From Saprospiraceae bacterium (GTDB lineage Bacteria > Bacteroidota > Bacteroidia > Chitinophagales > Saprospiraceae): 49,055 bases of DNA. The notes beneath the pieces are model-generated. The model made no database searches, was not told the origin of the DNA, and saw nothing but the letters and a program-made list of their open reading frames with translations. The DNA is taken from positions 1-49,055 of the forward strand of contig JANQZX010000012.1 of NCBI GenBank assembly GCA_030728245.1, written 5' to 3'. The translations under genes were made by a program, and so were the position numbers. Positions 2,263 through 5,617 of this stretch are shown here, one piece after another; the first letter of the stretch is position 1; every line of letters begins with the position of its first letter.

Positions 2263-3300
2263 ATGCTTATGAAAAATAGAATACTCTTATTTGCTTTCAC
2301 ATTGTTATGGAATGTATTAGTTGCTCAAACCAATCCAGTAGATTCAACCGTCAGTGTTAAAATTGAGAAATTCAATGGTACAACCTATTTGGGGAAAATT
2401 ATTTCTGATGATGGCAGAGAGATATTATTGGAAACATCTAATATTGGTAGAATATATATTCCAAAAAATGAGATAAAAACGATGTCCAGTGAAAAAACCC
2501 ATGAACTGAATATCCCGGGTAAACCGGCAGAATATTTTGCCTTTAACACCCGATATGCCTTTACCAATAATGCGTTGCCCATAAAGAAAGGTGACCATTA
2601 TGCGTCCATTTCATGGTATGGCCCCGAAGTACATTTTGCCGTTTCTAAAGGATTATCAGTAGGTGTCATGTCCACCTGGCTTGCTGTACCCGTGGTTCTT
2701 GCCATTAAATATACCCTGCCGTCAAAAAATGAAAAATTACATTTTTCTATCGGTTCATTGTTGGGAAGTAGCAGCTACGCCAATAATTTTAAAGGTTTTG
2801 GCGGACTACAATGGGGAACCGTAACGTATGGAAATACGATAAATAATCTATCCTTTTCTTTGGGCTATGGCTATATAAAAGTAGGTGACATGAGCAGTGT
2901 CGCTGTTCCGGGAACTTATGTGTCCCCGAATTACCCCATGTACAACAACGAAGAAAATCCTCTCAGGGCTTCGCCTATCTTTTCTTTCGCTGGGATTGTA
3001 AAGGTCAGTAAAAAGGCATCTTTATTTTTCGATTCCATGATTTCCATCAGTAAACAGGAAAAAACCTTTACCGCTTATGAGGGAGGTTTTGACCCCCAAA
3101 CCGGCAAAGAAAGCCCGTTTATTACTAAAGTAACGAGGGAAAATTTATGGACTTCTGCCTTTATACTAATGCCTGGAATGCGTTTTAAAATAAAAGAAAC
3201 ACAGTCGTTTCAAGTTTCTTTAGCGGGAATAAGTGTATTGGATAAAAATGAATCATCGTCATTTCCATTTCCACTGCTACATTGGTATTTTAAATTTTAG
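2263..3300 (+). CDS. Secreted/outer-membrane barrel-like protein of unknown function
   Basis: A 345-residue protein with an N-terminal signal peptide (hydrophobic to about residue 21, VAQ before the mature end). Residues about 30-70 form a short beta-rich segment (GTTYLGKIISDDGREILLET) of the kind often found at the N-terminus of Bacteroidota outer-membrane proteins. The rest is rich in Gly, aromatic residues and alternating hydrophobics, and it ends in FPFPLLHWYFKF with a terminal Phe, as in outer-membrane barrels. I do not recognise a named family. Two ATGs (2263, 2269) are possible. It is divergent from the DASS operon and no partner gene is evident. Confidence 0.75.
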   Translation: MLMKNRILLFAFTLLWNVLVAQTNPVDSTVSVKIEKFNGTTYLGKIISDDGREILLETSNIGRIYIPKNEIKTMSSEKTHELNIPGKPAEYFAFNTRYAFTNNALPIKKGDHYASISWYGPEVHFAVSKGLSVGVMSTWLAVPVVLAIKYTLPSKNEKLHFSIGSLLGSSSYANNFKGFGGLQWGTVTYGNTINNLSFSLGYGYIKVGDMSSVAVPGTYVSPNYPMYNNEENPLRASPIFSFAGIVKVSKKASLFFDSMISISKQEKTFTAYEGGFDPQTGKESPFITKVTRENLWTSAFILMPGMRFKIKETQSFQVSLAGISVLDKNESSSFPFPLLHWYFKF

Positions 3301-3338
3301 AAAAAAAAATGCCGGCTCTACCCCCCAGTGGAACCGGC
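3301..3338 (-). terminator. Rho-independent terminator of a minus-strand transcript
   Basis: Read on the minus strand, a GC-rich hairpin (stem GCCGGTTC with GAGCCGGC, extended by two further pairs after one mismatch; G-rich loop) is followed at once by nine T. On the plus strand it is followed by A, so it does not serve the upstream plus-strand gene ending at 3300. No minus-strand coding sequence lies upstream before htpG, so it must end a non-coding transcript. Confidence 0.85.
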
Positions 3339-3566
3339 AAAAAAAATCCATTCAGGTTTATTCTTAAAGTTATTCTTTTTAAAAAGTCGGTGGGCATCGG
3401 ACCAATGCGTCCCCCCAAAGATGATCTTGAGCCCACCTAAAAAAGTAATTCTTACCCCTGTAATTATCAGGAGAATCATAAAAGTCCAAAATGGGACTCA
3501 TACTAAAATAAAGTGGTATGTAGATATGGCTCAAAGACTCACCGCTTGAAAAGCGCAAGTAGTTTC
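3303..3566 (-). ncRNA. Candidate structured small RNA, about 260 nt
   Basis: This gene-free interval carries, on the minus strand, a promoter (3569-3600), a series of helices and a terminator. Visible helices in order: CGCTT/AAGCG, CATAC/GTATG, AGTCC/GGACT, then ATTCT+CCTG paired with CAGG+AGAAT, then GGTGGGC/GCCCACC with an inner GGAC/GTCC hairpin, then the terminator. A longer-range helix TTGAGCC/GGCTCAA (plus-strand 3528-3534 with 3427-3433) encloses three of them. I looked for conserved blocks of RNase P RNA, tmRNA and SRP RNA and saw none. A 6S-type RNA (Bacteroidota have a divergent 6S class) is a reasonable guess from length and hairpin content but is not shown. A 73-codon plus-strand reading frame over the same bases looks spurious. 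Confidence 0.6.
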
Positions 3567-3568
3567 CG

Positions 3569-3600
3569 TAAATATAATATCTTGTGTAATAGCTCTCAAA
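3569..3600 (-). promoter_or_regulatory. Bacteroidota-type promoter for the minus-strand RNA
   Basis: On the minus strand TTTG (3600-3597) is followed after exactly 20 nt by TATATTTA (3576-3569), close to the Bacteroidota consensus TTTG / TAnnTTTG. The predicted start is about 3562-3567, at GGAAAC. Together with the terminator at 3301-3338 this defines a transcription unit. Confidence 0.55.
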
Positions 3601-3671
3601 AAATAAAAACCAAAACTACATTAAATTTTCATAAAAACAAAAATATAAATAAAAATAAATACTGTCAGGAA

Positions 3672-3726
3672 TGGCCTATTGCTTGACAAAATGGCAGATT
3701 AATCAATGTGGCATATTGTTTGACAA
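3672..3726 (+). promoter_or_regulatory. Tandem -24/-12-like boxes upstream of htpG
   Basis: Two 18-bp sequences, TGGCCTATTGCTTGACAA (3672-3689) and TGGCATATTGTTTGACAA (3709-3726), match at 16 of 18 positions and are spaced 37 bp apart. Each has GG, ten bases, then GA, which is the spacing of a sigma-54 promoter (TGGCAC-N5-TTGCA) with A in place of C at -12. A weaker third TGGCA lies between them at 3692. The second box would start transcription near 3735, 17 nt before the htpG ATG. They could instead be operators of a heat-shock regulator. Confidence 0.45.
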
Positions 3727-3751: not shown

Positions 3752-5617
3752 ATGCAACGCGGTAATATATCTGTACAGACGGAAAATATTTTTCCAATTA
3801 TCAAAAAATTTCTCTATTCCGACCAGGAAATTTTTCTACGGGAATTAATTTCAAATGGTGTAGATGCCACTACAAAATTACAAACGTTAAGTAGAAGGGG
3901 AGAACTGAATAGTGACACGGGTGAAGTAACCATTGACATTATTCTTGATGAGGAAAAAAATACATTAACCATCCGCGACCGGGGTATCGGTATGACGGAG
4001 GAGGAAGTAATGAAATATTTGAATCAGGTGGCTTTCTCCAGTGCTCAGGAATTTATTGACAAATACAAAGATGATGCAAGCATCATTGGTCACTTCGGAT
4101 TAGGTTTTTATTCTGCCTTTATGGTGGCAACTAAAGTAGAAGTGGACACATTATCATGGAAAGAAGGTTCTACCGCCGTTTTATGGTCCTGCGATGGTAG
4201 TCCGGAATATACGCTTTCTGAAGGGTCAAGAAAAGAAAGAGGTACCGATATTATCCTTCATATTGGCGATGACAGCAAAGAATATCTGGAGAAAAAGAGA
4301 ATAGATGAATTGCTTGAAAAATACTGTAAATTCCTGCCTATTCCCATTCGTTTTGGTAAAAAGGATGAATCCAAAACAGAAGGAGAAGGGGAAGATGCTA
4401 AAACTGAAACCATACAGGTTGACAATTTTATCAACAACACCCAACCTATCTGGAAAAAATTACCAGCAGATTTAAGCGACGAAGATTATCGCAGTTTTTA
4501 TAGGGAACTCTATCCTATGAGTTACGAAACACCTCTGTTTTGGATTCATTTGAACATAGATTTTCCATTCAACCTTACCGGCGTTTTATATTTCCCTCAT
4601 TTGGGTAATAATATAGAAATACAGCGCAATAAAATACAGCTTTATTCCAACCAGGTTTATGTAACAGATAATGTAAAGGAAATCGTACCGGAGTTTCTTA
4701 CCTTACTTCACGGGGTCATTGATTCACCTGACATTCCGCTAAACGTTTCAAGAAGCTATTTACAAGCTGACAGTAATGTGAAAAAAATAACTGGTTACAT
4801 TACCAGAAAAGTGGCTGACAAACTTTCAGAATTATTCCAAAGCGAAAGAGATAATTATGAAAGCAAATGGAATGATCTTAGCATATTTGTTAAATATGGT
4901 ATGATCTCTGATGAGAAATTTTACGAAAAAGCAACGACTTTCGCCCTTTTCAAAACACTGGAGGGTAAATACAAGACCATTGACGAATATATTGATAGTG
5001 TGAAAGCACTTCAAACAGACAAGCATAATAAGATTATTCTTATCTATTCAAATGACAAGGAAGCGCAATATGTTCAAATTCAGTCTGCAAAAAACAATGG
5101 TTTCGACGTACTTGTTATGGATCAGGTTATTGACGCTCATTTTATGCAGCAACTTGAGTATAAGCAAGGAACGGTTACTTTTGTCCGCGTAGATTCTGAT
5201 ACAACAGATAATCTGGTTCAAAAAGAGGAAAAGAAAGAATCTGTTCTGTCAGAAGATCAGGAAAAACAGATTAAAGAATGGTTTACTGCCAATTTAAATG
5301 ATCCGATGTCAACCCTGGTGACCAAAGCACTTAATCCGGAAGATTTGCCTGTTCAGATTACCAGACCAGAGTTCATGAGAAGAATGAAAGAGATGCAGAT
5401 GATGCAAGGTATGAAAATGGATGGCTTTCCCGATTCTATCAACGTGGTCGTTAACACGAATCATAAAATTATAAACGAGCAGATATTAAATCAATCGGAT
5501 GAATCGGCCAGAAATGAAACGATGAAGTACCTCATTCAAATTGCAAAACTCCAGGCTGGCATGTTGACAGGTGCCGAGTTGAATGCTTTTGTGAATAAGA
5601 GTATAGATAATATTTAA
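3752..5617 (+). CDS. htpG: Molecular chaperone HtpG (bacterial Hsp90)
   Basis: A 621-residue Hsp90 homologue, full length (E. coli HtpG is about 624). The N-terminal GHKL ATPase domain shows ELISNGVDA (Glu31, Asn35, Asp38), DRGIGM at 76-81 and the lid/glycine motif GHFGLGFYSAF from 113. A charged linker rich in Glu/Asp follows near residues 208-222, then the middle domain with the client/ATP-contact segment NVSRSYLQAD, and the C-terminal dimerisation region from about 510. It is a cytosolic ATP-dependent chaperone for stress-damaged proteins. It is a single-gene unit with two unusual tandem promoter-like boxes upstream and a strong terminator downstream. Confidence 0.97.
   Translation: MQRGNISVQTENIFPIIKKFLYSDQEIFLRELISNGVDATTKLQTLSRRGELNSDTGEVTIDIILDEEKNTLTIRDRGIGMTEEEVMKYLNQVAFSSAQEFIDKYKDDASIIGHFGLGFYSAFMVATKVEVDTLSWKEGSTAVLWSCDGSPEYTLSEGSRKERGTDIILHIGDDSKEYLEKKRIDELLEKYCKFLPIPIRFGKKDESKTEGEGEDAKTETIQVDNFINNTQPIWKKLPADLSDEDYRSFYRELYPMSYETPLFWIHLNIDFPFNLTGVLYFPHLGNNIEIQRNKIQLYSNQVYVTDNVKEIVPEFLTLLHGVIDSPDIPLNVSRSYLQADSNVKKITGYITRKVADKLSELFQSERDNYESKWNDLSIFVKYGMISDEKFYEKATTFALFKTLEGKYKTIDEYIDSVKALQTDKHNKIILIYSNDKEAQYVQIQSAKNNGFDVLVMDQVIDAHFMQQLEYKQGTVTFVRVDSDTTDNLVQKEEKKESVLSEDQEKQIKEWFTANLNDPMSTLVTKALNPEDLPVQITRPEFMRRMKEMQMMQGMKMDGFPDSINVVVNTNHKIINEQILNQSDESARNETMKYLIQIAKLQAGMLTGAELNAFVNKSIDNI

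Follow-up and report, generated by a model that had tools for sequence, protein, structure and literature searches.

A probable family of structured RNAs with G6-loop hairpins, encoded near htpG in Saprospiraceae

We analyzed an intergenic segment, read on the minus strand, within a 49,055-nucleotide stretch of DNA (the window) from a Saprospiraceae bacterium whose own genome (G000) comprises 3.92 Mb at 99% completeness. The segment lies between a plus-strand gene (2263-3300), for which a Pfam search returned no match, and htpG (3752-5617, plus strand), whose product matches the Pfam HSP90 family. The first-pass annotation had proposed an unannotated non-coding RNA gene on the minus strand here, and several lines of support bear it out: the stems covary, the RNA is conserved in more than one genus, and its position in the genome is kept. 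The features of the putative gene are collected in Table 1; L and G numbers below denote individual loci and genomes.

Table 1. Features of the putative RNA gene in the window, with the basis for each.
Feature	Position	Strand	Basis
Whole RNA gene, ~330 nt	3301..3631	-	both ends placed by sequence comparison
Promoter-like element CTG-N20-TATTTTTG, -33/-7 type	3638..3668	-	alignment across relatives; start placed near 3631
5' conserved block GAGAGCTATTACAC (AGAGCU in relatives)	3584..3597	-	comparison of relatives
5' conserved block ATCTACATACCA	3514..3525	-	comparison of relatives, by eye
Hairpin 1, GGGGGGACGC in loop, G6 at 3416-3411	3389..3437	-	covariation, three sequences
Hairpin 1 helices: outer GGUGGGC/GCCCACC, inner GAUCA/UGGUC	within 3389..3437	-	
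Invariant 15-mer UAAACCUGAAUGGAU, upstream of terminator	3346..3360	-	identical in 7/7 aligned sequences, two genera
Terminal (terminator) hairpin, loop CACUGGGGGGUA, G6 at 3326-3321	3310..3339	-	covariation in 19 hairpins
T9 tail of intrinsic terminator	3301..3309	-	read from sequence

The RNA appears to end at an intrinsic terminator, as had been proposed from its T9 tail. The terminal hairpin is formed by UGCCGGUUC-CACUGGGGGGUA-GAGCCGGCA, with nine base pairs followed by the T run, and carries UGGGGGGUAG; its folding energy is -18.1 kcal/mol (z -3.6). A terminator scan omitted this hairpin, probably because the loop exceeds the scan's allowed 8. The window RNA has two hairpins with six G's in the loop (G6), the terminal hairpin and hairpin 1. 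Folded alone, hairpin 1 has an unremarkable energy (z -1.6; 15 of 200 shuffled sequences fold equally well), and the support for it comes from covariation, not energy.

The whole segment folds with a z of approximately -3.0. The long rod predicted for the window was not kept among minimum-energy folds: in L033 local hairpins take its place, and four other relatives fold differently. The rod in the window counts in favor of a divergent 6S RNA, one of the identities suggested at first, which would mimic an open promoter and bind RNA polymerase. A search of the whole genome with the 6S-Flavo model (RF01685) found none at E 1; the lack of a 6S RNA elsewhere also counts in favor of this identity, and the lack of a match at the locus itself counts against it. 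The window had no match above the gathering threshold in Rfam 15, and a permissive threshold (up to E 10) gave 11 matches, all below gathering and at chance level (E 0.75-9.6), none of them to a 6S family. Furthermore, what relatives keep is not one rod with a central bubble but G6-loop hairpins, of which a locus has one to four. We consider a 6S RNA extremely unlikely. Other known RNAs were not found either: Rfam and ARAGORN gave no match for RNase P, tmRNA or SRP, in agreement with the absence of such blocks noted before, ARAGORN detected no tRNA or tmRNA in the window, and an Rfam scan of 20 of 140 relative loci found no family at gathering. Searches of plasmid and phage collections gave no match to the RNA.

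The beginning of the RNA was revised. A promoter had been proposed at 3599-3571, giving a transcript of about 260 nt. Such sites are no evidence by themselves (nine were found in 2.6 kb, compared to 9.1 expected from shuffled sequences), and in relatives this position falls inside the conserved AGAGCU block. Because the earlier promoter (~3600) coincides with that block, and because the promoter-like element that aligns across relatives is the one further upstream (Table 1), the start of the RNA is probably near 3631 and its length about 330 nt. The aligned element, TTG/CTG ... T..TTTG, resembles the Bacteroidota promoter consensus. Picked with a loose regular expression, it occurs at about the same spacing before AGAGCU in L033, L037, L113, L045, L040, L041 and L042, and in L155 it was seen in one of two comparisons.

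The statement that the minus strand has no reading frame here was inexact. There is a 77-codon frame without an ATG (3379-3612) and a 53-codon frame with one (3318-3479). The 77-codon frame was rejected as a gene. It has no Pfam match, and among the loci compared it matches genus-mates only, the next best match having an E of 0.30; in these loci it is not conserved beyond the genus. In L033 the frame contains -1 and +1 indels and is still open, with 69% amino acid identity versus 93% DNA identity.

The segment is present in six genus-mates. In five of them it is 93-99% identical over 540-560 bp, and in the sixth, at a contig end, only 238 bp align. The first relatives beyond the genus came from loci collected by HtpG similarity. 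In L037-L039 and in L113, homologous RNAs lie on the minus strand upstream of htpG; in L045 the homologue is 1.7 kb away from that gene. L037-L039 and L045 belong to genus g19. Three elements are common to the window RNA and the g19 RNAs: the hairpin with GGGGGGACGC in its loop, the invariant UAAACCUGAAUGGAU, and a terminator hairpin whose loop has six G's. Compensatory changes were found in hairpin 1 as well as in the terminal hairpin (below). In a hand-made alignment of three hairpin 1 sequences from two genera (window, L037, L045), the outer helix has two-sided changes in five of seven pairs and the inner helix in one of five, with no pair broken in either, and GGGGGGACGC is unchanged in all three.

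Further likeness lies at the 5' end. AGAGCU is found near the RNA start in L033, L037, L113, L045, L040, L041, L042 and L155. Variants of the second 5' block, recognized by eye, are CTACATACCA (L041), CTACACATACCA (L037, L113), CTACGTACCA (L042), CTACATTCCA (L045) and GCATACCA (L040, L155). Through the promoter-like element together with the two 5' blocks (AGAGCU; CUACAUACCA or similar), the resemblance reaches, partly by eye, to L040, L041, L042 and L155. A covariance model restricted to the 3' end (R1) had matches at E 0.1 in 67 of the 398 genomes searched from the family; strong matches (E <1e-14) came from 12 genomes only, all of the window genus or g19, and several weak matches proved to have no G6 hairpin. 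The window itself matched at E 1.9e-18, as a training row and thus not independently. At approximately 1501-1533 of L010 (G016) there is a near-copy of the invariant 3' block, AATAAACCTGAATGGATTTTTTC, upstream of another gene and without a terminator hairpin.

We aligned 19 of 21 distinct terminal hairpins from 31 chosen sources (alignment A5), using a pattern, GGGGG..A, that favors the motif. UGGGGGGUAG is exact in 16 of the 19 (exceptions L050, L053 and L135) and the stems differ. Six G's are present in 17; L053 and L135 have five. Two hairpins lacking the loop motif were dropped (L033 659-694 and L085 96-126), and A5 also lacks the AGGGGGGAGA loops, with six G's, that occur in L037-L039 and L045. 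In A5, 82.0% of cells are paired, compared to 71.9% in shuffles and 32-58% in versions slid by 1-3 columns; L041, one of two L042 rows, L050 and partly L013 pair one column off and were counted as misses. Two-sided changes occur in 9 of 11 pairs, compared to 4.5 in shuffles. One of five measures, the number of further pair types, showed no excess (18 versus 16.5; 116 of 500 shuffles reach it). The letters of the loop are kept as the arms change.

A covariance model of the terminal hairpin (R2) had matches at E 0.01 in 98 of the 248 genomes searched from the family, spread over 48 of 112 genera, related genomes not being independent counts. The window matched at E 1.3e-6, again as a training row. 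R2 missed 150 of the 248 genomes, including a true member with a variant loop (G024), so these counts are lower bounds. In a mixed class sample there were matches in 3 of 295 genomes, and in a mixed order sample in 60 of 396; all belonged to the window's own family, whose genomes form part of both samples, the share from other families not being given. As far as sampled, the RNA family appears restricted to Saprospiraceae. Relatives have one to four G6 hairpins per locus. One search covered the window and 81 of 110 loci. By eye, several of L084-L097 and L142-L153 have a second small hairpin, GGYC-ARAWGY-GRCC, before the G6 hairpin. A chance terminator was ruled out by conservation through the family.

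It might be argued that the hairpin is a DNA element or a mere terminator, for example a bidirectional terminator or a repeat, with no function as RNA. A T run does follow the G6 hairpin in the window genus and at several other loci. However, L040 has a separate T-run hairpin after its G6 hairpin and L085 has no T run directly after it, and a terminator should work whatever the letters of its loop, yet this loop is conserved. Conservation also covers hairpin 1 and the 5' blocks. R2 had a single match in the window's genome at E 0.01, which argues against a dispersed repeat. We regard this explanation as very improbable. Conservation, covariation, the kept genomic position and the absence of relatives in Rfam all point instead to a non-coding RNA gene that stands by itself and belongs to a new family, an option that had been raised from the window alone and that we now hold to be very probable.

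The genomic place of the RNA was kept in many relatives. At 30 of 79 loci, the 1.5 kb upstream of htpG holds a minus-strand hairpin with at least five G's in the loop (G5+); three of the 30 look doubtful (L064, L067, L100) and eight come from two genera. The controls gave 1 of 79 on the plus strand of the same regions and 5 of 79 downstream of htpG, both strands combined. (Of 80 loci, L035 was excluded since it starts inside htpG.) Among R2 matches, 57 of 71 loci inspected, the window's own included, are divergent from htpG. The 71 were drawn from the 98 matched genomes, 31 from the search output and 40 picked by hand, with 27 remaining outside. From the search output, 28 of 31 are divergent within a flank of approximately 1.5 kb (the exceptions are L155, L165 and L170, the last at a contig end), and the window genus contributes four of the 31, counting the window; of the hand-picked loci, 29 of 40 are divergent and one of the rest ends at a contig edge. 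Although R2 was trained largely on htpG loci, copies in G024, G013 and G085 had come up before in a DNA search of whole genomes that took no account of htpG. Those in G013 and G085 adjoin htpG, that in G024 matches L045, 1.7 kb from htpG, and the other weak matches of this search were not G6 hairpins.

The RNA can also stand without htpG, because in six genomes (L126, L133, L135, L136, L165, L264) it lies beside a surA-like gene in an inspected stretch that has no htpG. The order surA - RNA - htpG was found in two genomes (L053/L137 and L059/L138/L164, whose identical match values led us to count two genomes rather than five). For the remaining loci without htpG, no neighbor common to all was found. 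Many members of one bacterial family carry relatives of the RNA next to this chaperone gene, which makes a new regulatory RNA likely, as opposed to one of the known housekeeping RNAs. Its position next to htpG, and in some genomes surA, hints that the RNA might act in stress or protein quality control, a role that we consider possible but doubtful.

Many of the loci have a sigma-54-type box upstream of the RNA. With an expression based on the sigma-54 consensus, a box was found in the 400 nt that precede the first hairpin at 39 of 69 distinct loci, compared to 14 of 1380 shuffles; the expression was composed after viewing the same loci, and the boxes of L143, L150, L151 and L153 (255-278 nt upstream) are doubtful. 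The opposite strand also matched at 21 of 69 loci, apparently due to htpG's own promoter. A sigma-54-type box was looked for upstream of the RNA in the window and its genus-mates and was not found, so the box is optional; the window genus and several others have the housekeeping-type promoter-like element in its place. The window's genome has one rpoN gene. A sigma-54-like box (TGGCATATTGTTTG) seems to be present in the window at 3709-3722, approximately 30 nt upstream of the htpG start, and is preceded by TGACA-AAA-TGGCA at 3684-3696; by eye, L037, L040, L085 and L091 have comparable boxes and TGNCA-N3-TGNC repeats upstream of htpG. In L043, L049, L231, L232 and L235, the first G6 hairpin of multi-hairpin RNAs is preceded by an open frame, some 80 codons long, in which LITKFYY..LCFQIL is shared, with a sigma-54-like box directly after its stop codon.

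How might such an RNA work? Near-fixed G6 loops on changing stems imply a partner that reads the loop: the hairpins with about six G's would be the working parts, and the stems would be free to change. In the mechanism that we prefer, this partner would be RNA, and the G6 loops would kiss C-rich RNA stretches. Some multi-hairpin forms have a double C-tract in the spacer between hairpins, which could base-pair with the loops so as to mask them or set their order; in short forms such as the window RNA, which has no C5+ tract, the pairing partner would act in trans. Pairing is preferred to protein binding, the main rival, because of the C-tracts inside some of the long forms. At least two C-rich tracts were found in 14 of 33 spacers between hairpins, compared to 1 of 33 for G-rich tracts, and the double C-tract was absent from the other 19; the 33 are the distinct spacers that were recognized, others having been missed (e.g. 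L232) and two (L074, L078) coming from atypical hairpins. At 48 loci, the region from htpG to the last hairpin contained C5+ tracts in 13 cases and other G5+ tracts in 12, six of the latter being hairpin 1 of the window genus. L144 has an exact 10-nt loop complement, CUACCCCCCA, upstream of its hairpin, in a stretch that the transcript may include.

The search for a target in trans found none. The loop complement CTACCCCCC occurs at four sites in the window's genome, namely the RNA gene itself and three positions antisense to open frames. Over eight genomes it was not enriched, and was rarer than a reversed control word (62 versus 99; the RNA gene of each genome is itself counted in the 62). 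Pairs of C6 tracts within 25 nt, sought in 90 genomes, were common in some and absent from the window's own, and were uninformative. Weighing these results, we hold the G6 loop as an RNA-pairing surface tentatively, as a reading with somewhat less than an even chance of being correct.

Two other mechanisms would also account for a fixed loop. CsrB and RsmZ titrate CsrA, with the number of hairpins setting the amount. Likewise, each G6 hairpin could bind an RNA-binding protein, hairpin number setting the titration; the number does vary (one to four), with a fixed loop and changing stems, and the single RRM_1 protein encoded in the window's genome is a candidate binder. On the other hand, the double C-tracts in some forms point to RNA pairing, and a search for CsrA (PF02599) in the 99% complete genome G000 found it absent, with detection in three control genomes. 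In addition, RbpB, an RRM protein of Bacteroides, is reported (PMC11697453) with small RNAs whose seed is in a single-stranded 5' stretch. A protein sponge is a rival that we think unlikely, yet worth keeping in mind. Alternatively, G6 loops could join into intermolecular G-quadruplexes, giving RNA dimers or multimers. At least two G6 loops per RNA in many relatives, and the six G's in most A5 hairpins, are consistent with this. But many relatives have a single G6 hairpin, L053 and L135 have G5, and C-tracts, where present, would compete. Quadruplex formation seems improbable to us.

The best overall explanation, to which we give a probability of roughly one half, is a new-family RNA gene with G6 pairing loops and a role tied to its place beside chaperone genes. 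Every step beyond a conserved, structured RNA gene is something we infer. We also suggest, with more doubt, that these RNAs may constitute a new regulatory class, "6G RNA", in which GGGGGG loops pair with C-rich RNA, double C-tracts mask or order them in long forms, many members are under sigma-54 control, and the genes are linked in the genome to htpG and surA. Literature searches on 6C RNA, Saprospiraceae small RNAs, RbpB/FopS and G-rich loops did not return a description of this RNA among the matches listed, and a search combining Bacteroidetes sigma-54, small RNAs and heat shock found no paper. If correct, our interpretation would add a structured RNA family absent from Rfam 15, and would do so in Saprospiraceae, for which no small RNA was described among those matches. 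The unusual near-fixed G6 loop and, in some long forms, its possible built-in C-tract partner would give a testable model of RNA-RNA pairing, and the kept place by chaperone genes, together with the sigma-54-type boxes, would tie the RNA to pathways that can be perturbed.

The proposed RNA resembles several known systems in part. CsrB and RsmZ are sponge RNAs in which hairpins with a constant purine-rich loop, ANGGA, are repeated, the number of copies being variable. The present RNA shares this repetition and a constant purine-rich loop; its loop is of the UGGGGGGUA type, not ANGGA, and the genome lacks CsrA. 6S RNA and 6S-Flavo are, like this RNA, free-standing and a few hundred nucleotides long, and the window RNA, alone among those folded, shares their rod-like fold; in contrast to them, there is no model score, the rod is not kept and the G6 hairpins vary in number. 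FopS and GibS of Bacteroides, which are connected with RbpB, are Bacteroidota small RNAs that end in a terminator hairpin, and an RRM protein is present here too. The FopS seed lies in a single-stranded 5' stretch according to passages of PMC11697453, and a word search there found neither "G-rich" nor "poly-G". That seed differs from the looped G's proposed here, and the Rfam 15 scan, in a release that may not contain FopS, gave no match. 6C RNA (6C/B11) of Actinobacteria is reported (PMC9569102) to bind mRNA through C-rich loops. That RNA and this one are structured RNAs with runs of one base in hairpin loops, but membership in 6C RNA is not indicated: the loops here are G6, not C6, the RNA is found in Saprospiraceae rather than Actinobacteria, it has no Rfam match, and some multi-hairpin forms have double C-tracts. 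We infer that the RNA is regulatory, and it would then be a new family of a known kind, the structured regulatory RNA.
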